DNA from: Verrucomicrobiia bacterium
Lineage (GTDB): Bacteria > Verrucomicrobiota > Verrucomicrobiia > Opitutales > Cerasicoccaceae
DNA: 64,000 nucleotides
Direction: 5' to 3'
Assembly: GCA_030425485.1 (NCBI GenBank)
Contig: JAUIAM010000024.1
Location: forward strand, 1 to 64,000
Shown here: positions 48,784 through 64,000 of the stretch, piece after piece
Position numbering within the stretch: position 1 is the first letter of the stretch
Layout: each line of letters begins with the position of its first letter
Made by a program: the position numbers and the translations under genes
The notes under the pieces: model-generated
What the model saw: the letters and a program-made list of their open reading frames with translations, nothing else
Databases searched by the model: none
What the model was told of the DNA's origin: nothing

Positions 48784-49791
48784 CTACTCGTCCTTTGGCG
48801 CCGCTGTGCTCTCGCGCACGATCAGCTCGGGCACAAAGGTGGAATACTCCGGCCCGGGCTCATCCCCGATCTTGGCCAGGAGTGCCTGCACGCTCAGGGC
48901 AACAAGCTCCCGCCGCGGCGCGGCAAGGCAGGTCAGTCGCGGGTGACTGATGCGCGCCAACAGCGAGTCATCCAGCGACACGAGCGAATAGTCATCTGGC
49001 ACACTGTAGCCTCGCTCCCGCAGTCCGGCGCACAAGCCGAGCGCCAGTAAATCATCGCCACACAGGCACGCCGTGCAGTCCGTTCCGAGCAAGGGAGAGA
49101 CATCCATCGGGCCAGACTCCGGCGACCACGTGGTCGTGATCTTCCACGCCTGCTCATACGCGGCTTTGCGTAACTGATAAAACTGCGCAACGGCCTCCTC
49201 ACAGCGCGTGTTGCGTACCGCGTCACCTCTGGCAACCAGCAGAGCGATGTTGCGATGGCCTTGATCCCACAAGTGCCGTAGACCGAGCATCACCCCGGTT
49301 TCAAGATCCAGTACGGCCGGTGAACACGTCGCATCACGATCATAGCTGACCACCGGAACCGCAGGCATGAGCCCCTCCAGGGCTTCATGACCGAGAGCCG
49401 GATGGCAGTTAAACACACCATCGACAAAGTCCAGCCCCAAGCCAGCCATCTGGTCCCGAAGCGACTCGCCGGAGCCCCCATTGAGCAAGCGAATGAGCAA
49501 GCTGTATCCACGCTTGGCCAATTCCTCATTGACCAGCGCAATCGTCTGGCTCATGCCCGGCGTGTCCAACTCTGCCGTGATGAGCGCAACCTGCTGCGTC
49601 CGCCGGGTACGCATAAACTGAGCCGCACGGTTTGGTTGGTAGTTCATCTCACGCGCAATCTGCTGAATGCGCTGGATTTGCCGGGCCGAGCTTTCCCACT
49701 GGCCCTTGGTCACACCACGCAAGGCACGTGAGGCAGTTCCGATGGAAACGCCTGCCGCCTCTGCAATGTCCTTCAGCTTCGCCTTGCTCAA
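48784..49791 (-). CDS. LacI family transcriptional regulator
   Basis: 335 residues when started at TTG 49791 (MSKAKLKDIA...), the usual LacI beginning; the longer frame from TTG 49830 would place an upstream palindrome inside the gene. The N-terminus is a LacI helix-turn-helix (LKDIAEAAGVSIGTASRAL) with hinge YQPNRAAQFMRTRR, followed by a periplasmic-binding-protein-like sensor domain (for example DFVDGVFNCHP, VPVVSYDRD, CLCGDDLLALGLCAGLRERG, SLVSLDDS). It is the only regulator in the polysaccharide locus and thus the best candidate to bind the repeated TGCATACCAATGCA operators. The effector sugar is unknown. Confidence 0.9.
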   Translation of the reverse strand: MSKAKLKDIAEAAGVSIGTASRALRGVTKGQWESSARQIQRIQQIAREMNYQPNRAAQFMRTRRTQQVALITAELDTPGMSQTIALVNEELAKRGYSLLIRLLNGGSGESLRDQMAGLGLDFVDGVFNCHPALGHEALEGLMPAVPVVSYDRDATCSPAVLDLETGVMLGLRHLWDQGHRNIALLVARGDAVRNTRCEEAVAQFYQLRKAAYEQAWKITTTWSPESGPMDVSPLLGTDCTACLCGDDLLALGLCAGLRERGYSVPDDYSLVSLDDSLLARISHPRLTCLAAPRRELVALSVQALLAKIGDEPGPEYSTFVPELIVRESTAAPKDE

Positions 49792-49808
49792 TACAGAGCG
49801 CAACGTTC

Positions 49809-49821
49809 TGCAAAATTTGCA
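49809..49821 (-). promoter_or_regulatory. Palindrome upstream of lacI-type gene
   Basis: TGCAAAATTTGCA, perfect arms of six around a central A, 18 bp before the TTG start at 49791. It may be an autoregulatory operator; it differs from the repeated operator of the locus. Confidence 0.35.
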
Positions 49822-49912
49822 AAATGGCAACGCCTTTCACAATGGGCACAAATGGCCAAACTGAGACATGGTTGCCATCAGCTACCCATATGCAGGAGAG
49901 GTGTCTAGCTAC

Positions 49913-51323: not shown

Positions 51324-51354
51324 TGCATACCAATGCCACATACATTGGTATGCA
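51324..51354. promoter_or_regulatory. Double operator, divergent pair
   Basis: Two facing copies of the locus operator: TGCATACCAATGCC at 51324-51337 and TACATTGGTATGCA at 51341-51354, each one base from the consensus TGCATACCAATGCA or its complement. They lie 50 bp upstream of both start codons, so one regulator could control both directions. The CTTTANG companion motif is not present here. Confidence 0.8.
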
Positions 51355-51404
51355 CCCATGCGGGATTCTGTTGCTGGCCGCACCTGTGCAGAATGGGGAA
51401 AGCT

Positions 51405-53912
51405 ATGATGATTTTGCCCAAGACAACCCGCCCCCTTATCCTTGGACTCAGCCTGCTTTGCAGCGCCCTCAATGCAGACGAGGAAAGCATAAAACAGCCC
51501 TCAGCCGAGGAAGCCACTGTCCTCTCGCACCCCGCACTTTTTATCTCACAGGAAGAAGCGGACCAAATCGTTGCCAAAGCCGAAACGGACGACTTCTATC
51601 GCCACGCGCTCGACACCGGCATTCTGGCCAACGCCCAAGCCGCCTACGAAGAACTCCAACCCAAACTCGGCCACCTGCCGCGTAAGGAATCCACCCATCC
51701 GCACCAGAACACCATTTACGCCGCACGCGATCTGGCCCTGGGCAGTCTCTTTACTAATGACCCGGCCTATGCCCGGCTCGCGGCAGACATCCTGCTCGAA
51801 TACGCTTCGTTTTACCCCACTCTGCCTCAGCGCAAAAGCCGCACCGGCAAACTGACCGCGCAGACACTCAACGAGGCCATGATGATGGTCCAGTTTTCGT
51901 GGATCTACGACATGCTCTACCCCACCCTCAGCGAGGACGAAAGGCGCAGCATCGAGGACAACCTTCTGCGCGAAGGCGCAAAGATGCTCCTGCCCAAAGA
52001 AGGACGCACCAACTGGCAGAGCTGGCACAACACGGCGCTAGCCACGCTCGGACTCGTACTCGACGAGCCCAGCTATCTAGAGCAGGCCAACAACGGCCCC
52101 TGGGGCTTTCACGCACAGATGGAGAGTTCGGCCAACCCCGACGGACTCTGGTACGAGATGTCCATCTCTTATCAGGACTACACCATGCAGGCACTCACCC
52201 TGCAGGCCATCGCCTGCCAACGCGCAGGCATCCCCCTCTTTCAAGCCGACAACAGCCAGATGCGCGCGCTCTACCTGGCCCCGCTCTACTTCGCCTACAG
52301 TAACCTCTATCAGGCCCCCTTTCACGATGCCCACCCCGCCGCCCGGCTGGACGGAGGAGCCACCGCCTGGCAGTACCCCTATGCCTGGCAGCAATACCAG
52401 GACCCAGCCATGCTCTGGCTCTGGCAGGTCAAAGACGTCGTCATAGAGCGTGCCAACCGCGAGAAGCGCATGCCGCCCCTCGTCGCTCAGTCGGTTATCG
52501 ATTTCTATCCCGGCAGCCCGGCAGACAAAACGCCCAAGGCATTCTCTATCGGCACAGACCAGCGCGAATCCGGGCAACTGCGCAACGTCCTCGGCAGCAC
52601 TTTGTTTAACAACAGCGGCGTCGCCGTCATGCGTGGACCCGCAGCGGAGACTTCAGCGGAGATGGCCATGATCTGGAAGCCGCGTGGCACCGAGGCCGGA
52701 CACCAGCACCCCAACAATCTCGCCATCGATTGGCAAAGCGCCGGGCACCGCTGGCTCTCCGCCTCGGGAAAATGGGAGGGCTACTCCAGCCGATTGCACA
52801 AGGACTGGGTCGCCCAGACCCTGAGCGACAACACCCTTGTCGTCGATGGCGAAAGCCAGCGCCCGAGCGGCAAAGGCATCCCCAACTGGAAATACGACGG
52901 CGAGGGCGAAACTTCCGCCGGGCAACTGATCGCCTTCACCAACGGCCTGACCTTCGGCTACGTTCAGGCCGAAACCGATAACGTCTACCCCGGGGTGCTC
53001 CTGGCCCGCCAACTCATTCACACCGACGCCTACACCCTGGATTTCTTCACCACCCTCGCCGACGAGGTCCACACCTACGACTGGTCGCTAAACATCACCG
53101 GTAGTCTGCAATCGGCTTCCGCCGAGTTCTCACCCGCGCAGGCTCCCTTTACCCAGCGTGGAGTCGCCTACACCTACCTTAGCGATACACAAAGCCTCAG
53201 CGCGGAAACTCCAGTGACCACGCTTTGGACCGACGCGGACACCTCCGAAACGCTGGCTATCACCACGCTGCCCCAGCTTGAAACCGAGCTCTACGTTTCC
53301 ACCACTCCCTGGAAAAGCCGGGAACGCGGCTCGCTCATCCTTTCGCGAAGTGACATGGACGCTGCCTTTCTCAATCTCTGGCGCGCCTACGAGGGCACCG
53401 ACCCCATCGCCGATGTTCGCCAGATAAAGGATGGCTACAGCCTCGTGGTTGAACTCATCTCCGGCCAGACCGACACCATCGACCTCGGCTTTGACGGCAT
53501 GCTGCTGGACGGCTCAGTGGGCGAAGACATCGTCTACCGCGCACGCGCGTTCATGCTGCGCCAGAACGAAGCAGGCGAGCTCCTGAGTGCCACCGCTATC
53601 AGCGGTAATCACCTGCGCACGCCCGCACTGGAACTCAACTTCGCCCAACCCGCCAACTGGAGCCTGCACGCCCTGCCCGATGGCAGCTACCTCCTTACCT
53701 TCGATCACGCCGAGACCGTCGAGTTCACCCTTCAGAGTGAAAAGAGCTATAGCATTCAGTCCCTGGATAATCAGGGCACGACCACCGGAACGCTGAAGTC
53801 GCAGGCTACGCAAAGCTGGCAACTCCAGCCCTTTACCAACTACCTCCTCTCGCCTGAGGGGCAATCCCCAGTCTCCCTGCCGCAATTGGTTAAAACCTTC
53901 CGCACGGAATAG
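51405..53912 (+). CDS. Heparinase II/III-like polysaccharide lyase
   Basis: 835 residues from ATG 51405, which has GGGGAA six bases before it. Signal peptide at about 1-23. The N-terminal half is an alpha-toroid domain (IYAARDLALGSL, SWHNTALATLGL, SANPDGLWYEMSISYQDY), and the second half is the beta-rich heparinase II/III domain with EAGHQHPNNLAIDW and SDNTLVVDGE. Enzymes of this fold cleave uronic-acid polysaccharides such as heparin, alginate and chondroitin by beta-elimination; the Tyr and His in YEMSISYQDY and GHQH fit that chemistry. The exact substrate is open. No carbohydrate-binding module is seen. Confidence 0.88.
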   Translation: MMILPKTTRPLILGLSLLCSALNADEESIKQPSAEEATVLSHPALFISQEEADQIVAKAETDDFYRHALDTGILANAQAAYEELQPKLGHLPRKESTHPHQNTIYAARDLALGSLFTNDPAYARLAADILLEYASFYPTLPQRKSRTGKLTAQTLNEAMMMVQFSWIYDMLYPTLSEDERRSIEDNLLREGAKMLLPKEGRTNWQSWHNTALATLGLVLDEPSYLEQANNGPWGFHAQMESSANPDGLWYEMSISYQDYTMQALTLQAIACQRAGIPLFQADNSQMRALYLAPLYFAYSNLYQAPFHDAHPAARLDGGATAWQYPYAWQQYQDPAMLWLWQVKDVVIERANREKRMPPLVAQSVIDFYPGSPADKTPKAFSIGTDQRESGQLRNVLGSTLFNNSGVAVMRGPAAETSAEMAMIWKPRGTEAGHQHPNNLAIDWQSAGHRWLSASGKWEGYSSRLHKDWVAQTLSDNTLVVDGESQRPSGKGIPNWKYDGEGETSAGQLIAFTNGLTFGYVQAETDNVYPGVLLARQLIHTDAYTLDFFTTLADEVHTYDWSLNITGSLQSASAEFSPAQAPFTQRGVAYTYLSDTQSLSAETPVTTLWTDADTSETLAITTLPQLETELYVSTTPWKSRERGSLILSRSDMDAAFLNLWRAYEGTDPIADVRQIKDGYSLVVELISGQTDTIDLGFDGMLLDGSVGEDIVYRARAFMLRQNEAGELLSATAISGNHLRTPALELNFAQPANWSLHALPDGSYLLTFDHAETVEFTLQSEKSYSIQSLDNQGTTTGTLKSQATQSWQLQPFTNYLLSPEGQSPVSLPQLVKTFRTE

Positions 53913-54255
53913 TCAGCTAGAGCGGAGAGCGGCTTAAATAAAATCATAGCCTCAGCTTACTCTATATTTTCACCACCGATTGCGCTGATACACTCAGCTA
54001 GCCTAGGAATAATCTGCGGACATAATATTCCTAAATACGGTAGTGTACCGTGAGCTAAGTTCCTCGCATAAGTTTGGGGTGCAACCCAGTTTGGATGCTC
54101 CTCTGGGATTACGGCCTTCAGCATCGCTGATGGCCGTAATCCCAGACGCGATGCGGCAGCATCGAAAGTGCAGGCTATGCCTGCTGCGGGGGTTGGGGGC
54201 GCATAGCCCCCAAAATTTATAGCAAAAACTTCGGTGCGAGATCACACCCAACGGC
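53913..54255. repeat. Intergenic region with repeat family C, copy 2
   Basis: 54041-54231 repeats most of 20132-20281: tagtgtaccgtgagctaag, ggtgcaacccagtttggatgctc, and tgcaggctatgcctgctgc...ggggttgggggcgcatagcccc. This copy holds an added hairpin, GGGATTACGGCC at about 54105 pairing with GGCCGTAATCCC. 53913-54040 shows nothing further. No gene. Confidence 0.7.
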
Positions 54256-54993
54256 CTAAGACTCGTTCTGCGCTTCGGCTAGCGTATGTCGGTACTGGTA
54301 AAGATTGCGGAAGATACGCACGCGGTAGGCACCTTCGCGATTCTGGGCCAGGTAGAAAACGATCAGGTACGGACGCGTCGGGTTGAAGCGTGCCACGGTC
54401 GAGTAAGCCGGCTTCCACTCGTCCTGAAAGACAGCGATCTTTAGCGGCAAGCTTTCGGCATCTTCGGCTTCCTTGGGCGTAAAGGTCTGCAACTGGTATG
54501 GCTGCAAGCTGCGGCGGTCGCCGCGTACATCCGCCGCGATGGTCTCACCGCACAAGTTTAGCAAGCCGATCGATCCGGACGGAATCATCTTCTCCGAAAT
54601 GTCGATGGCTGCGGCCGTGTAGCTATCGCCCTCGGCAGAACTTGCCATGAAAAGGGCAAAGACAGGCGTACGGGGCACGCGCACCTGTAGCGAAGGCTGG
54701 TACTGCCAGAGCCCCTCCGCATCCATGACACGCTTATAGAGAACCATGTTTGCGGGACCGCGATACCGTGCAGGCGGACTGAACTGACTAAACTGCGGCT
54801 TGAGCAGGATGTACTCGCCGTCGGTGAAGTAGTACAGCTCCAGTGACTCCCATGCCGCCCGCGCTTCCGCGGGGTCTGACTGCCCCCAGTAGATGGAGGT
54901 AAACTCAGCCGACACCGTGCCCTCGTTTGCGTGGGCCCCTTGTGCCACGCATGAGAGGATCAGGAGAAGGAGGATGTTTTTTATCGAAAGCAT
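54256..54993 (-). CDS. Exported protein, partner of Verru_Chthon A
   Basis: 245 residues. Signal peptide at about 1-22 (LLLILSCVAQGAHA). The rest is beta-rich and looks like a small soluble periplasmic protein with one pair of Cys (LNLCGE). It lies 15 bp downstream of the giant Verru_Chthon-type protein and is probably its operon partner. I do not recognise a domain. Position suggests it contributes to the same surface structure. Confidence 0.75.
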   Translation of the reverse strand: MLSIKNILLLLILSCVAQGAHANEGTVSAEFTSIYWGQSDPAEARAAWESLELYYFTDGEYILLKPQFSQFSPPARYRGPANMVLYKRVMDAEGLWQYQPSLQVRVPRTPVFALFMASSAEGDSYTAAAIDISEKMIPSGSIGLLNLCGETIAADVRGDRRSLQPYQLQTFTPKEAEDAESLPLKIAVFQDEWKPAYSTVARFNPTRPYLIVFYLAQNREGAYRVRIFRNLYQYRHTLAEAQNES

Positions 54994-55008
54994 ATCAGTT
55001 GTCTGGGG

Positions 55009-58000
55009 TTACTGGACCATTTCGCCCTCGCCCAACCAGCGGAAGGACACGATCTTGAATTTGCGCCCGAGCGTGCTGTTGGGTGCCTGCAGGGCGGCCA
55101 GGTCATCCCAGGGGTCGTTCAAAGTGCTGTCAACAAACTCGGGTACACGCTGCACCACGGCTTCACCGTAGGCTTCGGCCAGCGTTTCCCCCGTCAAGGG
55201 GTCTTCTGCTGAGCCGTAGACCAGAATCGTAAACGTATCGGAACGCACCGTCATGGCCGGACCGAGCACGGAGAGCAGGTCCACTTGCGAGAGGTAGCCC
55301 GGCAGGTCCGCCCCGATGGCACCGTAGAATCCGCTTCTTTCCGCAGTGCTCCCCACGAGGCCCGAGCTGGTATCAACGACATCCGAATTGCCGTAAAAGT
55401 CTTCGTTGCAAATGGCCAGCTCCAGCGCTGCGCTGAGCGCACCCTGCCGCATGACCATTTCCTCCAGGTCATAACTGGACGGGCGGAAGTTATGCGGGTC
55501 GGGCGCATCGTCGGACAAGTCGTCCCGATAAAGTGACTCGGAGTACATCACGCGATTGACGAAGGCCGCCATCGAGGGAAAGGGGCCGCGCAGCTTGACC
55601 TGCTCCACGATGCGCTCGGCCAGGTCGCGTATCTCGTCATCGCTCAGACGACGGTATCCGTAGACCGAACCCGCCTCATCCTGCCCAAGGTCGCTACCAC
55701 TCAGTTCACTGCCCACCGGGCCGGAGAAGCGCGCGAACAAGCTCCCCGTTCCGGTATCGGTATCGTAAGGTTGATCGCGGTAGGCTGAGAGGAATGCGCT
55801 CCAGGCATCGACCGAGGTCGAGTTAACGTTGAAGCCGCCCTTGAGGTACAGCTCCGAAGCCGACTCGTCGAAATCGCGCAGGGCGGTCTCGTTACCGGCA
55901 ATACCAGCGATCGGCTTGACCAGCGGATTGCGGAAGGGCTCCGCGATCGTCCCGGTCTGCGGAACGGTCGAAAAATAGTACCGATCGAAGAGGACTTCGT
56001 TCACCAGATAAGAGTAATCCCAGACCATCTTGGCTTCTCCCCCATTCATATCATAGAAGTGCCAGTAGCGGGTGCCGTTCGAGGTGTTGTCGGCGTCAAG
56101 TTCGATGTAAGGTGAAGCGCGCGAGCTACCCACGATATAGGCTGGTGCGTAGTCATCGCCAGCGCCCGTGAAGGAAAGGCGTAGCGACCACATAAACTCA
56201 CCCGTCCACCCTGTACGCACATTCCCATCAACGGTATCCATGAGACTCTTGGTGATAGGATTGTCTTTTACCGGGGGAGCAATCAGGTTGGCGTGGGCAA
56301 ACTGCGCCAGCGCGTGCGGTGCCTCCTGCGGAAGATCAAAGAGTATGGCCTGGCCCGCACCGCCAAAAGTGGCAGATGTCCCAACATAGGCATAGCTTCC
56401 ATCGACGGTTTGCATCAGCGAGTTAGCCTCGGCGTCACTATCTGCGGAAAACCCGCCGATATAATTGGCTAGAGGGTCGTCACTCTTGTCCAGGCCGAAA
56501 TCTATATTGTTAAAGGTATTCACGGTGGCGCGGGGATTAAACAATCCTGCCCAGACACGTGAACTCTGCGAACTGGCATAAAAATCCGTCTCCGCGAAAG
56601 GCATGGAAATCGTGTAGAGGAACTTGGGGTCGGGGTGTCCATTGAGTAGCGGCTCATAAAACTGCACCCCCTGCACGCCCATCTGGTTGCTGGCAGAAAT
56701 ACCGCAGATAACCTGATACAAGGCCGTACTCGACCACGACATGGTGGGGAGATACTGCTCACTGACATCCAGGAAGAACCGGCCATTTCCCGTCAGTGTA
56801 AAGCGTATCCGGGGAACAACCTTACTCCCGTCGGGATTTAATGCGCTGGGGTCATCGTCAAAGGTGATCCCGCTCAACTGCTCAAAGCCTTCGCCTTGAC
56901 GGTAGCCCTCCTCCAGCAGATTGATACCATTTGTACCTTTACCCACGTAGATACCTGAAGACGTGCCTGGAGTATACTTGGTGTCCGCCCCGGAAGGGGA
57001 AAAGATCATCGCCCGGCCTGCGGGTATCCTCGCGGATTTGATCGTGAGTGGTATCGCCCCGATCTCTAGGGTGCTGTCAGAAACCGTTCGCCCCTCGACC
57101 TCGATATTCTGAATTTCAATGTTGTTGTCACCGCGATCCTGCTTGAAGTATGCGTGCAGGTCCGGCGTTTGGATGTCAAATCGATAGGGGTTCCACAGCA
57201 CAATGACCGGGAAGTAGGTGAAGCGAATCTGCAGTCCATCATAGTCCGCATAGATGCCCAACTGGAAGTGTGTGATGACAGGCTTGATCCCGATACGGTA
57301 GTCAGGCTCGCCTTCGACGAGTGGAAGACGGTTTGGGTGTGTGTTGACCACATCACCAGTGGCTACACGTGTGTTATAAAAGTCACGAAACAGTCCCCAC
57401 TGGATAAAGTTGAAGTTAGGAGAACGCTCCTCTGGTGCCCCGCCCAGGCCACGGCTGAAGAGGAAGTTCGCGTCGGCGATCTCTGCCGGGGCGGTGTTGG
57501 CGTTATCGAGGCCGTAGCTGAGGTCTTTCTTCAAGCCGCCGTTACGCACATCGACAAAGAGCGAGTTGGAAACCAGCGAGTAGTCCCTGCCCAGGTAGTT
57601 GACCGAGTTCGACCCCGCCAAGTCCGGCAGCGCACTGATGCCCAGGTCGTTGAAGAAATTCACCCGCCCAAGCTCACTCGTTGCGAGCCCGTCTAGAACC
57701 GGGTTGAGCTGCGGCGAAAGATGCTGCGGAACCAGCCAGGCTGCATCGCTGTGGTCAGCCGTGTTGATCTCCTCGTCGAGGTTAAGCCGCGCTTTGACGT
57801 TTTCGTCTCCCACCCACCAAGCGTAGCTGCCTTCATTCTGACCGATGTCAACACGCGGCACGCTGATGCGGTAGGTGTCGCCGCTGCCGTCCGGAGCAAC
57901 CGCATCGACCAGCGTAACCACGTCCGGGCTGTTCGGGTCGAGTGCGGTGTTGGGTGTCACGTACCCGGCCGGATACGGGTCGTCCGAGCTGATATCAAAC

Positions 58001-58446
58001 GCGCTCGTGGCATTCCCACTGACCAATACGGCGGGTTTACGGTCGGGGTCGTGGCCGGGGATCGAGCCCGGCGCCTGCCCCTCGGCCCCGGAGACATCCC
58101 AGACCAGGGTAAAGTTCGGATTGGCCACAGAGGTGAACTCCATCGTCGCGCCGTTCGAGCGCACAAAAGTATCCTCGATGGACGCGGTGGAGGTCACCCG
58201 CTGGTCGGGTCCGGCGTACTTCTGCAACTGCCCGACGGCTTCCTGCAGGGCAAACATGGCGTTCAGTCTGGCCTGCGACATGGACTTGTGCGCGCCACTG
58301 AGCTGCACTTCCGTCTGGACCATCACAGATAACGAAAGAATCAGCAGGACCACAAAGCCCATCAGGGTCAGGGCTACAATGAGGGCGAAACCGGGAGCAC
58401 TGTCGCGCCGGAGTAAAGGTGCCGATTCTGAACGGGTCTTGAACAT
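55009..58446 (-). CDS. Giant pseudopilin-like protein, Verru_Chthon cassette A type
   Basis: 1145 residues from ATG 58446 (an upstream extension covers the operators). The N-terminus is prepilin-like: a short basic leader, Gly19 followed by FALIVALTLMGFVVLLILSLSV, then a helical stretch (VQLSGAHKSMSQARLNAMFALQEAVGQLQ). A Glu at position 5 after the cleavage Gly, usual in pilins, is not present. The large remainder is extracytoplasmic and rich in Asn/Asp/Gly, without recognised enzymatic motifs. The family is known from multi-gene cassettes in Verrucomicrobia and Chthoniobacter that have undescribed function. Two perfect operators precede it. Confidence 0.8.
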   Translation of the reverse strand: MFKTRSESAPLLRRDSAPGFALIVALTLMGFVVLLILSLSVMVQTEVQLSGAHKSMSQARLNAMFALQEAVGQLQKYAGPDQRVTSTASIEDTFVRSNGATMEFTSVANPNFTLVWDVSGAEGQAPGSIPGHDPDRKPAVLVSGNATSAFDISSDDPYPAGYVTPNTALDPNSPDVVTLVDAVAPDGSGDTYRISVPRVDIGQNEGSYAWWVGDENVKARLNLDEEINTADHSDAAWLVPQHLSPQLNPVLDGLATSELGRVNFFNDLGISALPDLAGSNSVNYLGRDYSLVSNSLFVDVRNGGLKKDLSYGLDNANTAPAEIADANFLFSRGLGGAPEERSPNFNFIQWGLFRDFYNTRVATGDVVNTHPNRLPLVEGEPDYRIGIKPVITHFQLGIYADYDGLQIRFTYFPVIVLWNPYRFDIQTPDLHAYFKQDRGDNNIEIQNIEVEGRTVSDSTLEIGAIPLTIKSARIPAGRAMIFSPSGADTKYTPGTSSGIYVGKGTNGINLLEEGYRQGEGFEQLSGITFDDDPSALNPDGSKVVPRIRFTLTGNGRFFLDVSEQYLPTMSWSSTALYQVICGISASNQMGVQGVQFYEPLLNGHPDPKFLYTISMPFAETDFYASSQSSRVWAGLFNPRATVNTFNNIDFGLDKSDDPLANYIGGFSADSDAEANSLMQTVDGSYAYVGTSATFGGAGQAILFDLPQEAPHALAQFAHANLIAPPVKDNPITKSLMDTVDGNVRTGWTGEFMWSLRLSFTGAGDDYAPAYIVGSSRASPYIELDADNTSNGTRYWHFYDMNGGEAKMVWDYSYLVNEVLFDRYYFSTVPQTGTIAEPFRNPLVKPIAGIAGNETALRDFDESASELYLKGGFNVNSTSVDAWSAFLSAYRDQPYDTDTGTGSLFARFSGPVGSELSGSDLGQDEAGSVYGYRRLSDDEIRDLAERIVEQVKLRGPFPSMAAFVNRVMYSESLYRDDLSDDAPDPHNFRPSSYDLEEMVMRQGALSAALELAICNEDFYGNSDVVDTSSGLVGSTAERSGFYGAIGADLPGYLSQVDLLSVLGPAMTVRSDTFTILVYGSAEDPLTGETLAEAYGEAVVQRVPEFVDSTLNDPWDDLAALQAPNSTLGRKFKIVSFRWLGEGEMVQ

Positions 58447-58561
58447 AAATTTTGGCGTCACGAGATCAACGAATGGTGAGAGGAGAATCGCACAGGTAGA
58501 ATGTATCGGATTACAGGTCTGATTAAATCCTGAGAGCACTTTATCGTAAAGCGCCTCCAAA

Positions 58562-58591
58562 TGCATACCAATGCAACTGCATTGGTATGCA
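58562..58591 (-). promoter_or_regulatory. Double operator of the Verru_Chthon gene
   Basis: Two perfect copies facing each other: TGCATACCAATGCA at 58562-58575 and its complement at 58578-58591. On the minus strand CTTTACG (58545-58551) follows the first site after 10 nt. About 115 bp before the start codon. Confidence 0.85.
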
Positions 58592-58624
58592 TGATGATTC
58601 CAACTGGGCCTGGAGCGGGGGTAA

Positions 58625-58653
58625 GGAAAAGGCCGGGTGAGGATCACCCGGCC
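58625..58653 (-). terminator. Terminator after PEP-CTERM gene
   Basis: On the minus strand GGCCGGGTGA-TCC-TCACCCGGCC then TTTTCC. It ends transcription of the gene at 58695-59459 and separates it from the Verru_Chthon unit. Confidence 0.8.
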
Positions 58654-58694
58654 TGCTGAAATCACCTAAAGGCGGCCATGAGCCACCCCGTGGT

Positions 58695-59459
58695 TTACTT
58701 GGCCAGGCGGCGCTTTGCGCAGATCAAGCCGAGGAGGCCGAGCCCAAAGAGAGCTGGAGTCGTGCCCGGCTCGGGGATGGAGTTCACCTCCATCGTCGTC
58801 ACACGCAGGTAGCGGTCTGTACCCGCATTGGCATAACCGACCTCATAACGCAGGGACGCTACGACACCATCTTCGACATAGTTGTAAGGGAAAGGCACCC
58901 CTGCCTGCTCTCCAAGCGCGATACCATTAACCGCCATGCTGATGGTGCCACCAGTACCGTCCGTATTGGACGACCATTCGAAGGAATACTCCAGAAAATT
59001 CGTTATATCCAAGCCACCTGGGAGCACATTCGGACCGGAGGAGCCCTCAGCACCCTCGACATATAGGTTCAGCGTGGAAGAGTCGCGTAGTTGTAATCCA
59101 AACAGGGTATTATCATCGGCGTCCAAAAACAGGATCTTACCCACAAAAGGCGATGCCCCACTGGAATTGGCCGTTATGGTGGCATTACCTTGAGCTATTC
59201 CTTCGCCGAAAGCGTATGTCGCGGTCGGATAACGGTAATCATTAGAATTTCTAAGGACCAGCGCACTGGCTCCACCTCCGATGAAAGTGCTGATGTCGTG
59301 GTCGGCACTGGCGTTGAGCGTGAAGCCGGCGTCCTTGACCGCCTGTACGCTGTTTTGAGTCCAGCTACCATCGGTGAAATCGTAGTCTACGACCGGGGTG
59401 GCCATTGCGGGGGTCATGGCAGCTAGTGCCAGGCTAAGCGGTAGAATGAGTTTCTTCAT
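58695..59459 (-). CDS. PEP-CTERM protein, lectin-like
   Basis: 254 residues from ATG 59459. Signal peptide MKKLILPLSLALAAM...ATP, a beta-sandwich-looking body (many paired strands with Asp/Gly/Thr) and the tail SIPEPGTTPALFGLGLLGLICAKRRLAK-type PEP-CTERM. It is a paralogue of 60995-61747 (clearly similar across the whole length, beginning MKKLILPLSLAL and sharing SWT-NSVQAVKDAGFT). The fold could bind glycan, but no family is named. Controlled by the operator at 59572 with its CTTTATG box. Confidence 0.85.
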   Translation of the reverse strand: MKKLILPLSLALAAMTPAMATPVVDYDFTDGSWTQNSVQAVKDAGFTLNASADHDISTFIGGGASALVLRNSNDYRYPTATYAFGEGIAQGNATITANSSGASPFVGKILFLDADDNTLFGLQLRDSSTLNLYVEGAEGSSGPNVLPGGLDITNFLEYSFEWSSNTDGTGGTISMAVNGIALGEQAGVPFPYNYVEDGVVASLRYEVGYANAGTDRYLRVTTMEVNSIPEPGTTPALFGLGLLGLICAKRRLAK

Positions 59460-59571
59460 ATACATGCTTTTTTGGGTGAGATGAGTGTTTGTTTGGGGGG
59501 TAAGAATGAACACGCTGGGTGCGTAGAGACCTGTCTAGTATGTCCGGTCATTATCATAAAGACCGCAGCTA

Positions 59572-59585
59572 TGCATACCAATGCA
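59572..59585 (-). promoter_or_regulatory. Operator of PEP-CTERM gene
   Basis: Perfect TGCATACCAATGCA. On the minus strand CTTTATG (59555-59561) follows after 10 nt; start codon 113 bp away. Confidence 0.85.
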
Positions 59586-59626
59586 GTGGTCGGGAGCGGT
59601 CCTGTTTGTAGAATATAGAGGGATTG

Positions 59627-60787
59627 TTATGGTTTATGTTCTGCGGAGGGGGACGCGAGCTCCAGCACGAGGACGGTGGTATCGGGCTTTTTTCCGGAGT
59701 AATAGGTGAGGTAGTGCGCACCATTGATCGCGGTCGCGTTCACGTTACCTGCATCATAGGTCACTTTACTCCCCGTTGCAACTACCTCCGAATCCGGCCA
59801 ATCGAGTGGGTTACCAAAGATGTGCTCGGCATTGGCTACCCGGCGACGGAGGATACCCTTACCGCGCTGGTAGTAGTAGTTACTCAGCAGGCGGGATTCG
59901 GCATCAAAGACCAGCGTGGGCGTGGAGGCGTACACATCATCGATGTTGGTCTGCGTGCGCTTCCAAGTCGCGCCGTTGTCCGTAGAGACCATCTGAAACT
60001 GCAACGGATCGGGCGTTGAGCGTCCCTTGTTCTCCGTCCTTGCGACGATCAGTATCTTGCCCTCCCCCAGATAAGCAGCGGCGGGCTCGGTCGGCCAGTC
60101 CGCCAGCGTCAAGTCAGACTCAATGGTGGTTTGCTTCCAGGTTCTCCCATCATCGCTGCTGGTCAGCGTTCCCCATGAGTGAGTCGGCCCCCGGTCGCGG
60201 TAGTCCCCGGCAAACCATATGGCCATGAGCCCCACAGTGGGCACCTCAAAGACGTCCGTAATCTGGACGGGTATAACGTCAAGTTCCGGCGAGGCCACGA
60301 GGTTGAAGCCCACGCCATCTGTGGTGCGGTAAAGATCATGCAGGCGTCCTTGGGCGCCAACACGTCTTACCCATAGCAACATGGCACCCGACGAGTCCAA
60401 GCCCTTGCCCACGGCGACTTCACCAAAGCCAGGCGTGTCGGCAATCAGCGTTTCTTCAGTCCAGGTTTTGCCACCATCGGTAGAAGTGCGCGCATAGACC
60501 AAGCGTGAATCCTCGTCGATCGTATGCTTTGTACCTCGGCTGTAGACGCAAACCAGCTTCTCTCCGATAGCCTGAATCATGGGCCAGGAGTTGTAGCCGC
60601 TCACATCCTGCACGACGTGTGGTGTGGCCGCATCTGTGCTATGTGCGAGTGTACTTCGCATGGAAGAAAAGAAAACGATCACGATGAAAGCGAATGCGAT
60701 GATGGCCTGGTCGCCTGGAAATGAAATGGCCTTGGCCCGCTTTCTATGGAAAATGCCGTCGTGCGCTTTGGGGTAATCGTGAGTCAT
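59627..60787 (-). CDS. Sialidase-superfamily protein with Asp-boxes
   Basis: 386 residues from ATG 60787 (frame open to 60826). A hydrophobic segment at about 28-45 (AIIAFAFIVIVFFSS) acts as signal or anchor. Three Asp-box motifs, STDGGKTW, SSDDGRTW and STDNGATW, with an early YSRGTKH-type strand, indicate the six-bladed sialidase/BNR fold. Such proteins are glycosidases or binding proteins for complex glycans; the catalytic Arg triad cannot be assigned with certainty. Operator at 60900 with CTTTATG, 113 bp upstream. Confidence 0.83.
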   Translation of the reverse strand: MTHDYPKAHDGIFHRKRAKAISFPGDQAIIAFAFIVIVFFSSMRSTLAHSTDAATPHVVQDVSGYNSWPMIQAIGEKLVCVYSRGTKHTIDEDSRLVYARTSTDGGKTWTEETLIADTPGFGEVAVGKGLDSSGAMLLWVRRVGAQGRLHDLYRTTDGVGFNLVASPELDVIPVQITDVFEVPTVGLMAIWFAGDYRDRGPTHSWGTLTSSDDGRTWKQTTIESDLTLADWPTEPAAAYLGEGKILIVARTENKGRSTPDPLQFQMVSTDNGATWKRTQTNIDDVYASTPTLVFDAESRLLSNYYYQRGKGILRRRVANAEHIFGNPLDWPDSEVVATGSKVTYDAGNVNATAINGAHYLTYYSGKKPDTTVLVLELASPSAEHKP

Positions 60788-60899
60788 TGAGGTTCTGAGA
60801 GGTAAATAGACGAGTGATAAGCACACCGTATGAATGCGCGTGCCTGTATCTTAGTTGCATATGTGATGTAAGACACTTCAGGCATAAAGCTCCCACCCG

Positions 60900-60913
60900 T
60901 GCATACCAATGCA
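60900..60913 (-). promoter_or_regulatory. Operator of sialidase-fold gene
   Basis: Perfect TGCATACCAATGCA, with CTTTATG at 60883-60889 on the minus strand, 10-nt spacing. It lies just beyond the 3' end of the next PEP-CTERM gene, between its terminator and the target gene. Confidence 0.85.
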
Positions 60914-60935
60914 GCTTGACAATAAAGACGCGCAG

Positions 60936-60962
60936 AAAAGGCCGGGCGATGCGCACCCGGCC
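60936..60962 (-). terminator. Terminator after second PEP-CTERM gene
   Basis: GGCCGGGTGCGCATCGCCCGGCC-type hairpin (one mismatch) followed by TTTTC on the minus strand, similar in sequence to the terminator at 58625-58653, as expected of duplicated units. Confidence 0.75.
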
Positions 60963-60994
60963 TGTAGAATTCACCCAAATAAAACCAAAGCCGA

Positions 60995-61747
60995 CTACTT
61001 GCCCATGCGACGCTTCGCGCAGATCAGACCGAGCAGGCCCAGCCCGAAGAGAGCCGGAGTCGTGCCCGGCTCGGGAATAGCGTTTACCTCCATCGTGGTC
61101 ACGCGCAAAAAGCGGTTCGAGCCCGCACTGCTGAAGCCCGCTGCGAACTGCAAGGAGGAAACAACACCATCGACCCTGTACCCGATAGAATTACCCACCA
61201 GATCATCTCCGTTAAACGAGATGTTAACCGTGCCGCCCGTGCCATCTGTATTCGATGACCAACTGAATCCATAGGTGTTGAAAGTCGTGATATCCCCACC
61301 GCTAGGCAGTACATTAGGTCCGTCAGAACCAGTATATTCGCCGTCAGCATAGATGTAGAGCTGAGTTTCATAACGAAGCTGCAGGCCAAACAGGGTATCG
61401 CCGCCCTCGTTGAGGAAGAGAATTTGGCCAACATACGGGTTCGAGCCGCTGGAATTGGCCGTAAACGTGGCATTGCCCTGAGTGATTCCCTCAGCGAAGT
61501 CATAGGTCGCAGTGGGAAAGCCAGGGTTTGTCGTATCAGAGAGCACCAGCGCGCTGCTGCCACCTCCGATGAAGACATTAGAGTCTGAGTCGCCAGCAGC
61601 GTTTACGGTAAAGCCTGCGTCTTTAACCGCCTGCACGCTATTGGTCGTCCAGCTACCGTCGGTGAAGTCGTAGTCCACCACGACGGTGGCCGTTGCGGGG
61701 GTCATGGCAGTTAATGCCAAGCTAAGTGGCAGGATCAGTTTCTTCAT
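60995..61747 (-). CDS. PEP-CTERM protein, paralogue of 58695-59459
   Basis: 250 residues from ATG 61747. Same organisation as its paralogue: signal peptide (MKKLILPLSLALTAM), beta-rich body with DFTDGSWTTNSVQAVKDAGFT, and tail IPEPGTTPALFGLGLL with final KRRMGK. Sequence has diverged most in the middle, as though the two bind different ligands. Preceded by the operator at 61853 and CTTTAAG (61836-61842). Its terminator resembles that of the other copy. Confidence 0.87.
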   Translation of the reverse strand: MKKLILPLSLALTAMTPATATVVVDYDFTDGSWTTNSVQAVKDAGFTVNAAGDSDSNVFIGGGSSALVLSDTTNPGFPTATYDFAEGITQGNATFTANSSGSNPYVGQILFLNEGGDTLFGLQLRYETQLYIYADGEYTGSDGPNVLPSGGDITTFNTYGFSWSSNTDGTGGTVNISFNGDDLVGNSIGYRVDGVVSSLQFAAGFSSAGSNRFLRVTTMEVNAIPEPGTTPALFGLGLLGLICAKRRMGK

Positions 61748-61852
61748 ATTTATAACTATTTTGGGTGAGCGAAAAGACAGCATGAATAACATGCGTCCAA
61801 GAATGGAAACATATCTATAAAAGAGTGCGTTTGGCTTAAAGTCCGAATACAT

Positions 61853-61866
61853 GCATACCAATGCAA
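61853..61866 (-). promoter_or_regulatory. Operator between PEP-CTERM and PL8 genes
   Basis: Perfect TGCATACCAATGCA, with CTTTAAG on the minus strand 10 nt further. The same region may serve the divergent PL8 gene. Confidence 0.85.
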
Positions 61867-61915
61867 CTTAACGGTGTAGGTTTTACATCCCTGAAATAAA
61901 AGGCTATAAGCGATA

Positions 61916-61929
61916 CCATAACAATGCAT
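61916..61929 (+). promoter_or_regulatory. Degenerate operator near PL8 gene
   Basis: ACCATAACAATGCA matches the consensus at 11 of 14 and lies 81 bp before the PL8 start. Weak; could be chance. Confidence 0.35.
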
Positions 61930-62009
61930 CCCAAACCATACCCGACACCCCACCTCACCTGAGACAATCCATATCAAGCCATCCTATTATTATAATTTTA
62001 TAACTTATC

Positions 62010-64000
62010 ATGAACCCGATCAAGACACTCCACATTTCACTATGCCTAATGCTCATTTCTCAGCTTAATGCCAATGCCGGGAACGACGCCCCCTGGAAAA
62101 CTCCCCGCGATCCGGTTATCGCCAAAATGGCACCGCAGGTCATCGAGAGTCTTTCCGGTAGCTATCGTGTGCGTGGCCCACTGCGGGATGGCAAGGCGCC
62201 CGAGTTTCTCGCCAGCTTACAAGCCGACGGCACCTTTCCCGACCTCGACCCCGACGACAACCACCGCGCCCTGCTGCGTATCTGGGTCATTGCCCTGGAT
62301 CTGGGAAGAAAGCAGGCCCTGACTCCTGAACTGCGCCAAAAACTCTACACCGCCCTCGCCCACTACACTAAGCTCGAGGCTCAGAATCCTGCCCCCTGGC
62401 CCATCGGCTGCTTCCACTCGCCCCTGTATTTCCTTGGGACCTGGTTTATTCTGGAGCCTGACATGAGCGCGGACTGGCAAAGTCAACCCGAGCTTCGCCC
62501 CACCCTGAAAACCATCTGGGAGCAAGGCGGCATCGTCGCCTCGCACGCATGGAACTTTCCCGGCGGCGGAACACGCGTTACCGACCCGCTGAGCATCGAG
62601 AACTTTCGCCATGACGGTGCCTTCGTCGTGGCTAACTTTTACCCCTACCGTCCCTTGGTCGCCTATGCGCTTTTCCTCGGACGCGACGACTACCTGGCCC
62701 TCACGATCGAGACGGCCAAGCTCTCCATCGACAAGCCTGTCAACCCCGCCGACCCCGCCCTGGGCTTCTGGACCGAGGGCATCAACCCGGATAGCTCCGT
62801 CAGTGCGCACGGCCAGCAGAACTACCTCTTTGGTTATGGCAAGGACTACCTAAGCGGCCTGAACAAGCTGGCCAATCTCACCCAGGACACGCCCTACGCC
62901 TTCGAGCCCGAGCAACTCGACGTCATGGCGGGCATCATCCTGGACGGGATGCAGTGGTTTGTCTACCACGGGCAGACGGACTACTCCGTCCTCGGGCGAC
63001 ATAATTTCTACCCCGACTCCGGTCAGGGTGCGGAAGCGTTGCTGACTAACCTGAGCAATGCCCTGCTCAAAGCTTCGACCACGCCATTGGCGCGGGAAGC
63101 CGAGCTTAAGGCCCTGGTGAAAAGGCTCGGCAAAGGCAAGAGCTTTGCCGGCAGCCGCTACTTCTGGAACGTCGAGGACTACGTCCACCGGGGCGAGGAC
63201 TACTCCATCGTGGTCAACGTGAGCTCAACCCGCATGCCCGGTCCCGAGAATACCGACCGCGGACGGCAAAACTACCATTTTGGCAACGGTGTGTCCTTCA
63301 TCTATCTGCGCGGCGATGAGTACAAGGACGCCCGTGGCGGGATGAACTACCGCGCCTTGCCCGGCATCACCGCTGCCTACGGCGACCCCATCGCTCCGTT
63401 CATCATGACCTGGCGCGGGCTGCGCGGGCGCAACACCTTTTCCGGTGGGCTCAACCATGAGCACTCAGGCATCATCGCGTTTGAGTCCGACCTCGACGCC
63501 CCCCACGAAAGCGTCAAGGCCAAGAAGGCGTGGTTCTTCCTCGGCGACATCATGGTCTGTCTCGGGACGGACATCCGCGCCGACGAAGACGTCGCCGACA
63601 TTCAGACCACCGTGAATCAAACCGCGTGGCGCACGCCCGTCACCCTCTGGGAAGACGGCGTCGAAGAACCTACTGAATTCGAGGAAGCGGCCGAGTTCCC
63701 CGTCGCCCTGATGACCCCCGCCGTGCTCTGGCAGGACGGCGTGGGCTACGTCATTGCCGAGGGCGAGGCCTCCTTTACCACGCAGACCGTCCCCACCCAC
63801 TGGGAGGAGCTCAGCCGCAACAACACGGCCAACGAGCCCACCTCCGAAGCCGACATTTTCCGCCTCTACTTCGAGCACTTCGACGAATCGCTCGCCCACT
63901 ACGCCTACGCGGTCCACCCGGCCATCAGCCTGAGCGAAGCCGCCGCACTGGTTACCTCCCGGACCTGGGACCTTCTGGCCAACACCCCGCAGGCACAGGC
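62010..64000 (+). CDS. PL8 family polysaccharide lyase (3' end outside window)
   Basis: At least 663 residues, open to the right edge. Signal peptide at 1-23 (LCLMLISQLNANA). The N-terminal alpha-toroid has His267 and Tyr276 in SAHGQQNYLFGYGKDYL, spaced nine as in chondroitinase AC (His225/Tyr234 by my recollection), and Arg330 in LGRHNF at the expected distance; the second Arg of that enzyme is not at the equivalent position. A beta-sandwich domain follows from about 380 with NYRALPGITA. PL8 enzymes eliminate uronic-acid glycans such as hyaluronan, chondroitin and xanthan. Substrate is open. Confidence 0.9.
   Translation, partial: MNPIKTLHISLCLMLISQLNANAGNDAPWKTPRDPVIAKMAPQVIESLSGSYRVRGPLRDGKAPEFLASLQADGTFPDLDPDDNHRALLRIWVIALDLGRKQALTPELRQKLYTALAHYTKLEAQNPAPWPIGCFHSPLYFLGTWFILEPDMSADWQSQPELRPTLKTIWEQGGIVASHAWNFPGGGTRVTDPLSIENFRHDGAFVVANFYPYRPLVAYALFLGRDDYLALTIETAKLSIDKPVNPADPALGFWTEGINPDSSVSAHGQQNYLFGYGKDYLSGLNKLANLTQDTPYAFEPEQLDVMAGIILDGMQWFVYHGQTDYSVLGRHNFYPDSGQGAEALLTNLSNALLKASTTPLAREAELKALVKRLGKGKSFAGSRYFWNVEDYVHRGEDYSIVVNVSSTRMPGPENTDRGRQNYHFGNGVSFIYLRGDEYKDARGGMNYRALPGITAAYGDPIAPFIMTWRGLRGRNTFSGGLNHEHSGIIAFESDLDAPHESVKAKKAWFFLGDIMVCLGTDIRADEDVADIQTTVNQTAWRTPVTLWEDGVEEPTEFEEAAEFPVALMTPAVLWQDGVGYVIAEGEASFTTQTVPTHWEELSRNNTANEPTSEADIFRLYFEHFDESLAHYAYAVHPAISLSEAAALVTSRTWDLLANTPQAQ

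Follow-up and report, generated by a model that had tools for sequence, protein, structure and literature searches.

We analysed a window, i.e. the whole stretch of 64,000 nucleotides at the start of contig JAUIAM010000024.1 from a Verrucomicrobiia bacterium (assembly GCA_030425485.1; Opitutales, Cerasicoccaceae), and found that a giant protein encoded there has a predicted structure matching that of GspK, the pseudopilin at the tip of the type II secretion apparatus. We refer to this giant GspK-like minor pseudopilin as VCA and to the secreted protein encoded directly behind it as the partner. In our assessment there is about an even chance that the VCA-partner pair forms a locus-specific pseudopilus tip acting on glycan. 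The original prediction for positions 54256-64000 had assigned the giant protein to the Verru_Chthon A family and placed it, as a pseudopilin-like protein, in a glycan-capture system; its pseudopilin nature is borne out by the fold match, and the family assignment has to be given up. The two genes of the pair are the following.

55009-58446, minus strand: VCA, giant GspK-like minor pseudopilin of 1145 aa, the N-terminus G|FALIVALTLMGFVVLLILSLS being of the prepilin type and lacking Glu5
54256-54993, minus strand: partner, secreted protein of 245 aa with two transthyretin-like beta domains in tandem, encoded by the second gene of the pair (signal peptide by eye)

The AlphaFold model of the window's VCA, built with 57 relatives in the alignment, has a predicted local distance difference test score (pLDDT) of 80.6 and a predicted template modelling score of 0.86. 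Compared with solved structures, it aligns with GspK of enterotoxigenic E. coli (3ci0_K) over 240 of 280 residues with a Z-score of 10.6 and a root-mean-square deviation (rmsd) of 3.6, the second-best row reaching a Z-score of 4.4. The N-terminal 71 columns of VCA match a GspK profile of 30 sequences with an E-value of 5e-6, compared to 1e-3 for a GspG profile (9 sequences), 5e-3 for a GspI profile (26 sequences) and no match to a GspH profile (9 sequences, start cut off), these control profiles being smaller than that of GspK or cut; the profiles provide modest evidence for kinship to GspK. For comparisons across genomes we used 80 named loci, the best 80 of more than 566, which contain 85 VCA open reading frames (ORFs). 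The N-terminus is alignable in 80 of these 85, with Gly at position -1 in 74 and Ala in six, and none of the 74 has Glu at +5. The missing Glu5 is a trait of GspK among prepilin-type starts, and the prepilin-type leader of VCA would be cleaved.

Conservation is located at both ends of VCA: columns with a majority of at least 70% make up 44 of 207 in the N-terminal part, 84 of 335 in the C-terminal part and 29 of 475 in the middle insertion, which is large, variable and beta-rich (borders of the three parts drawn by eye). The insertion lies at about residues 216-800. The underlying alignment comprises the window's VCA and those of 57 of the 80 named loci; 58 had passed a filter for a G-x-A-L start and for length, and L127 was removed by hand. 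Beta-sandwich matches of the insertion (Z 3-4) were too weak for use, and hhalign of VCA against a single GspK was uninformative. A PDB sequence search with the VCA profile gave no match, and Pfam gave none for the window's VCA.

Scored against the Verru_Chthon_A model (TIGR02600), the window's VCA reaches 23.5 bits over 59 N-terminal residues, compared to a cut-off of 332.3, and eight other VCAs reach 19.8 bits at best or show no match. No TIGR02600 match at E<=1e-20 was found among the four of 18 candidates scored in the own genome, and true TIGR02600 proteins (E<=1e-20) are present in two of 145 genomes. VCA and Verru_Chthon A are thus different families, and both may be giant relatives of GspK, as suggested by an N-terminal profile match between them (E 1.4e-9; four true sequences); two further motifs, DE-x-x-K-x-N-x-N and a C-terminal one, occur in like order in both families, a resemblance that is not significant. 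True Verru_Chthon A loci have prepilin-like genes alongside in five of nine cases (by eye; L290-L298), whereas a motif expression found no prepilin-like ORF within 8 kb in 14 of the 15 VCA loci of the own genome and one such ORF in the remaining locus. The true Verru_Chthon A proteins of L290-L298 carry a GspK-type motif, and the Verru_Chthon cassette itself may be a GspK-type tip set.

The partner gene, to which the original prediction gave no role, starts 15 nucleotides past the VCA stop codon in the window. A homologue follows 14 of the 15 VCAs of the own genome, its start lying about -13 to +81 nucleotides from the VCA end; all 14 copies are directly downstream of a VCA, and no copy away from a VCA was detected in this genome at E<=0.001. 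Homology holds for 14 of 14 partners in leave-one-out profile comparisons, with E-values from 2e-12 to 9e-62. Across the 80 named loci, a partner match is found at most 600 nucleotides behind 77 of the 85 VCA ORFs, and L102, L125, L138 and L157 contain two VCA genes per locus, each followed by a partner match. The model of the partner (pLDDT 90.0) consists of two beta domains. Extracellular domains of PepT transporters match it with Z-scores of about 10-12, the best match over both domains being PepT2 (5a9i_A; Z 12.2, 174 residues, rmsd 3.7), and for the second domain alone Z-scores are about 10 with HGSNAT, 8-10 with cholesterol-dependent cytolysin domain 4, about 9 with AlgF and about 8 with transthyretin. 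As these matches reflect a common beta arrangement, no function can be deduced from them. In Pfam nothing consistent and no fitting family was found for the partner, and a PDB sequence search with its profile returned one chance-level row. The partner alignment contains the window's protein and 58 of 61 listed sequences, L111, L116 and L118 being left out.

The own genome encodes at least 15 VCAs, compared to one GspK match. One of the 15 VCAs, L073 (C33:120.7-124.3 kb), is split by a frameshift, due to an assembly error or decay, and has an intact partner; it was counted and left out of the alignment. VCA numbers are lower bounds, as 20 candidates were scored in the own genome and 14 per genome elsewhere. 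A VCA match (E<=1e-10) is present in 42 of 54 genomes including the own, with 4 to at least 15 VCAs each in the own genus and family, and the titles of the 80 named loci refer to groups of Verrucomicrobia, one Kiritimatiellota and one 'PVC group' genome. For 36 genomes both proteins were examined: GspK is matched in 27 of the 28 with VCA and in six of the eight without. We found one type II secretion system (T2SS) operon in the genome, comprising GspF, E, D, M, L and K and pseudopilins (F, L and M by eye); its gspK is on contig C56, and all 15 VCAs lie outside the gsp operon. A second secretin cluster, PilM-Q-like by eye, is present on contig C39.

The 14-bp operator TGCATTGGTATGCA connects VCA with the other genes of the locus. 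The part from 47.9 to 64.0 kb comprises ten genes according to the ORF listing and family scans, i.e. LysR, LacI, FAD oxidoreductase, uronate lyase, partner, VCA, PEP-CTERM protein 1, BNR protein, PEP-CTERM protein 2 and PL8 lyase. Five exact and two one-mismatch copies of the operator occur in the window, every one close upstream of genes of the locus. The features in addition to the pair are:

48784-49830, minus strand: the window's own LacI-family gene, the product of which probably does not read the operator
51324-51354: two one-mismatch operators between the divergent FAD oxidoreductase and PL17-like lyase genes
51393-53912, plus strand: uronate lyase with Alginate_lyase and Hepar_II_III_C domains, solved relatives alginate lyases (ORF from 51255; start by eye)
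58562-58575, minus strand, and 58578-58591, plus strand: inverted pair of exact operators preceding VCA
58695-59459, minus strand: PEP-CTERM protein 1 (ORF from 59513, with MKKL at about 59459 as the likely start)
59572-59585, minus strand: exact operator upstream of PEP-CTERM protein 1
59627-60787, minus strand: BNR/sialidase-fold protein, probably exported (ORF from 60826; start by eye)
60900-60913, minus strand: exact operator upstream of the BNR protein
60995-61747, minus strand: PEP-CTERM protein 2 (ORF from 61861, with MKKL at about 61747 as the likely start)
61852-61865, minus strand: exact operator between the divergent PEP-CTERM protein 2 and PL8 genes
62010-64000, plus strand: PL8 lyase, continuing past the window end into L083; among solved structures best related to chondroitinase AC and to a mannuronate-specific lyase

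Dinucleotide shuffles predict 0.01 operator copies compared to the seven observed, and none of 100 shuffles reaches seven. The exact copies in the window are the only ones in the whole assembly (62 contigs, 3.8 Mb). With up to one mismatch the pattern occurs 0-4 times per genome in 18 relatives and 11 times here, none of the matches listed for the relatives being exact. The claim of an operator shared by the giant protein and both lyases holds with one reservation: PL8 lacks an operator of its own, whether exact or with one mismatch, and its sole possible site is 61852-61865, common to the divergent PEP-CTERM protein 2. TTGGTA within the operator resembles a -35 box, and the hexamer TA(C/T/A)G(A/C)(T/C) exactly 17 nucleotides further on a -10 box (by eye; in the direction of VCA, PEP-CTERM 1, BNR and PEP-CTERM 2), for which reason the operator may overlap the promoter.

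A LacI-family regulator encoded elsewhere, on contig C57 (C57:123361-124455, corresponding to L080:9362-10456), is the likely reader of the operator, acting in trans. Two sites, with one and two mismatches, lie at its own start, a counterpart with such sites adjoins PL8 in Coraliomargarita sp. SDUM461004 (64% identity), and the LacI protein of the window resembles it in the helix-turn-helix alone (18 of 53 residues identical), for which reason we do not favour the latter as the reader. Two ORFs downstream of the C57 regulator lies a GH106 gene. The palindromic core TGCAT-N4-ATGCA occurs at six sites in 1.26 Mb of own sequence, five in the window and one at the start of the C57 LacI gene, part of this sequence having been chosen for its operator matches and three further sites being listed on contig C11. 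The latter (C11:38629, 42932 and 46689) have a different spacer, one adjoins a LacI gene at C11:38676, and they are perhaps a sister regulon. One-mismatch operators at C1:34334 (in the LacI gene of VCA locus L076), C28:62931 and C54:20721 lie inside ORFs and were taken as chance.

In Coraliomargarita sp. SDUM461004 (L086) the locus is conserved, the orthologues sharing 54.5% identity for PL8, 57% for PEP-CTERM, 59% for VCA and 52% for the partner. An exact operator precedes VCA, and a one-mismatch operator lies between the divergent PL8 and PEP-CTERM genes in the same layout as in the window. Where the LacI gene adjoining PL8 starts, there are again two sites, one with a single mismatch and one with two.

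The genes predicted between 54256 and 64000, i.e. the giant prepilin-like ORF, both PEP-CTERM proteins, the BNR/sialidase-fold protein and PL8, are all present; the second of the two lyases placed there is located outside, at about 51.4-53.9 kb. Its description as heparinase-like is not supported either, as among solved structures it is closest to alginate lyases, several of which are named PL17, despite the Pfam match to Hepar_II_III_C. PL8 contains the domains PF02278 (4.8e-46) and PF08124 (1.1e-9), chondroitinase AC and the mannuronate-specific lyase are its top solved relatives, and its active-site His and Tyr align with chondroitinase AC. The two PEP-CTERM proteins share 65% identity, exceed the Pfam cut-off (PF07589; 25.0 and 26.2 bits, cut-off 20.7) and have the PEP motif, hydrophobic stretch and basic tail. 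The BNR protein aligns weakly with sialidases. A GH28 gene lies behind the VCA-partner pair in L086. The substrate of the locus is probably a uronate-rich polymer, perhaps with rhamnose as a further component. Two similar GC-rich palindromes with T-runs at 58630-58654 and 60939-60963, 3' of the two PEP-CTERM genes, are by their sequence probably terminators of these genes, suggesting separate transcription units. A near-perfect 21-nucleotide inverted repeat with a 3-nucleotide loop occupies 54102-54146, between the PL17-like lyase and partner genes.

VCA loci elsewhere also point to carbohydrate use. In the own genome a LacI gene lies within 5 kb of seven of the 15 VCAs, compared to 1.62 expected (p 0.00085; 34 matches above the cut-off, one below dropped), and a sulfatase within 5 kb of four of the 15, compared to 1.31 expected (p 0.039; 35 matches, two adjacent pieces merged); given this weak enrichment we rejected sulfatases as a marker of VCA loci. 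Neighbour tallies rest on random draws of mechanically called ORFs (106 of 133 VCA neighbours, 106 of 629 controls, 94 of 288 neighbours in named loci), the controls coming from examined stretches, mostly contig starts, rather than from the whole genome. Among the 106 VCA neighbours were seven sulfatases, seven LacI, three AraC and three BNR_2 proteins. None of these families is among the 25 of 155 listed for the 106 controls from other own stretches; as four of those listed have two members and the rest one, the controls contain at most one sulfatase and at most one LacI. The 94 neighbours in the named loci include five sulfatases, four LacI, three rhamnosidases, two GH92 and two GH94. VCA pairs have a common neighbour homologue in 15 of 58 cases at 40% identity or more, in 9 of 254 at 34-40% and in 44 of 3541 below 34%. 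An association of such genes with carbohydrate-type loci elsewhere is moderately supported. PL8 and the exact operator recur in SDUM461004, and a PL8 homologue is found beside VCA in three of 95 loci, namely that of the window and those of the two VCAs most closely related to it (59% and 43%). The distribution of PL8 and the sharing of neighbours fit a tip whose specificity goes with the enzyme, and equally fit simple synteny.

The statement that SusC/SusD pairs and TonB receptors are missing holds for the ten proteins of 47.9-64.0 kb according to the family scans, and the whole genome has one TonB plug match (PF07715, contig C43), SusD not having been searched genome-wide. With one plug match, uptake seems to need a route that does not rely on many TonB receptors, and VCA is a candidate part of such a route.

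These data suggest a model with a two-gene cassette at its core, encoding a giant minor pseudopilin of the GspK type along with its secreted partner of two transthyretin-like domains. The TGCAT-N4-ATGCA operator, most likely read by the C57 LacI-family regulator, would control the cassette together with the PL17-like lyase, PL8, the BNR protein and the two PEP-CTERM proteins. After cleavage of its prepilin leader, VCA would be placed, in line with its modelled fold, at the tip of a pseudopilus in place of the housekeeping GspK, the pseudopilus being built by the T2SS (or type IV pilus) machine of the cell. The variable insertion and the partner, different at each locus, would set the ligand of the tip, most likely a polysaccharide or a lyase-polysaccharide complex, the tip capturing glycan and the partner taking part in binding. 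A wider version, in which swappable tips of VCA plus partner (about 15 here, on one T2SS) fill a SusC/SusD-like specificity role in many Verrucomicrobiota by capturing polymer at the secretin during lyase export, is tentative and, in our view, rather doubtful.

Several observations weigh against a glycan-acting tip. The GspK fold match comes from one aligner and one model, and Foldseek alone found no PDB match for the VCA model at E<=0.001. Starts of prepilins cross-match each other (GspK-GspI E 3e-5, GspK-GspG 3e-4), making the N-terminal match of VCA weakly specific, and past the N-terminal helix VCA has no significant sequence similarity to GspK in the comparison with the 30-sequence profile. 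Among eight VCAs the best score for GspK (NF037980/PF21687) is 20.8 bits, below the cut-off of 130 bits, and VCAs reach no NCBIfam cut-off. Eight of the 85 VCA ORFs have no partner behind them (L122, L126, L127, L134, L135, L136, L147 and L149); in L122 and L126 a partner match lies just upstream instead, and L136 is a split ORF, one piece of which has a weak partner match. The VCAs of L127, L134 and L135 form a clade of 63-69% identity without partner and without common neighbours, possibly serving a different use, and the own VCA at C40:175602 has neither a partner nor, by eye, glycan genes. Sulfatases within 10 kb of VCAs are not significantly enriched (4 compared to 1.97 expected, p 0.13), and the neighbours sampled in the named loci also include housekeeping genes. 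Among the 25 VCA pairs of highest similarity, nine have a common neighbour and 16 have none, L101 and L107 share none at 80% VCA identity, and common neighbours among close VCAs may be plain synteny.

The strongest rival is a cargo adaptor, according to which the giant tip picks the lyases of its own locus for export through the common T2SS and binds enzymes, not glycan. The T2SS tip complex is described as critical in the recognition and binding of secretion substrates (PMC6211770), and it is this role that makes an enzyme-handling tip the strongest rival; the authors of the Verruconatronum study propose that the T2SS could export alginases (PMC13274419). The GspK-like fold of VCA and the operator it has in common with the lyases would also suit an adaptor. 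Other users of the T2SS have one GspK for many cargoes, and a tip per locus would therefore be unusual; moreover, the presence of PEP-CTERM proteins under this operator hints at a role at the cell surface that goes beyond secretion, and overall we consider the adaptor unlikely. In another scenario VCA sits on a true type IV pilus assembled by PilM-Q-type machinery and attaches cells to the polymer in the manner of tapirins. Type IV pili have a tip subunit of the GspK kind, and the secretin cluster on C39 could belong to such a machine; one of eight VCAs (L152) matches a tapirin, though not significantly (E 0.086), and the best solved match is GspK of the T2SS, even if pilus tip proteins may also fit. 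A pilus adhesin thus appears quite improbable.

The original prediction had favoured a fibre or matrix, in which VCA and the PEP-CTERM proteins would trap polysaccharide outside the cell. Both PEP-CTERM proteins are under the same operator, and a motif expression found nine PEP-CTERM-like tails in 211 kb of VCA flanks compared to 15 in 879 kb of stretches from elsewhere in the genome, of which one is by eye a chance match. However, no such tail lies within 8 kb of nine of the 15 VCA loci, or of seven if L072 and L076 are added, where the expression missed at least two tails near VCAs seen by eye; a partner accompanies 14 of 15, and the fold of VCA is that of a tip subunit. This leaves a matrix as a remote prospect, and the modelled fold points to a pseudopilus tip as the more specific idea, with the qualification that a tip may handle enzymes rather than glycan. 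Finally, VCA might be a surface protein that is co-regulated but plays no role in the use of glycan, associated with these loci through gene mobility. The weak sulfatase enrichment and the many similar VCA pairs without common neighbours are compatible with a bystander, which the enrichment of LacI near VCAs and the conservation of the exact operator before a VCA gene next to the same lyase in a second species render very unlikely.

Verrucomicrobiota degrade complex polysaccharides, and for how their polymers are held and taken up, the VCA-partner pair provides a concrete candidate that can be deleted. The partner family has no Pfam model although the gene pair is widespread. If the glycan-acting tip is correct, it would be a new use of the pseudopilus, with exchangeable tips on one machine. 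Among the matches listed in the open-licence literature searched, there is no account of the VCA-partner cassette, and the term 'Verru_Chthon' is absent there.

In comparison with known systems, SusC/SusD are adjoining gene pairs in polysaccharide loci and are locus-specific; VCA differs from them in being a pseudopilin, neither a TonB receptor nor a SusD lipoprotein, and some VCA loci are not clearly glycan loci. Tapirins, pilin-like cellulose-binding proteins, share with VCA the idea of a pilin-like glycan binder, the similarity being non-significant as stated. One alginate cluster of Verruconatronum alginivorum contains a pulG-like pseudopilin with 67 homologues, which like VCA adjoins uronate lyases, and another pseudopilin is among three proteins over-expressed on alginate outside the two alginate clusters of this organism, with one replicate per treatment (PMC13274419). 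These proteomics link pseudopilins with uronate use in Opitutales, the pseudopilin of the cluster being described as pulG-like, and the sections consulted mention no partner or tip role. GspK/XcpX (3ci0 chain K) shares with VCA the prepilin-type start without Glu5, the fold of the body and the N-terminal profile match; VCA in turn differs from GspK by its length of 1145 residues, compared to 334-490 in the GspK set of the relatives, by its many copies per genome, by its location outside the T2SS operon and by its transthyretin-like partner.

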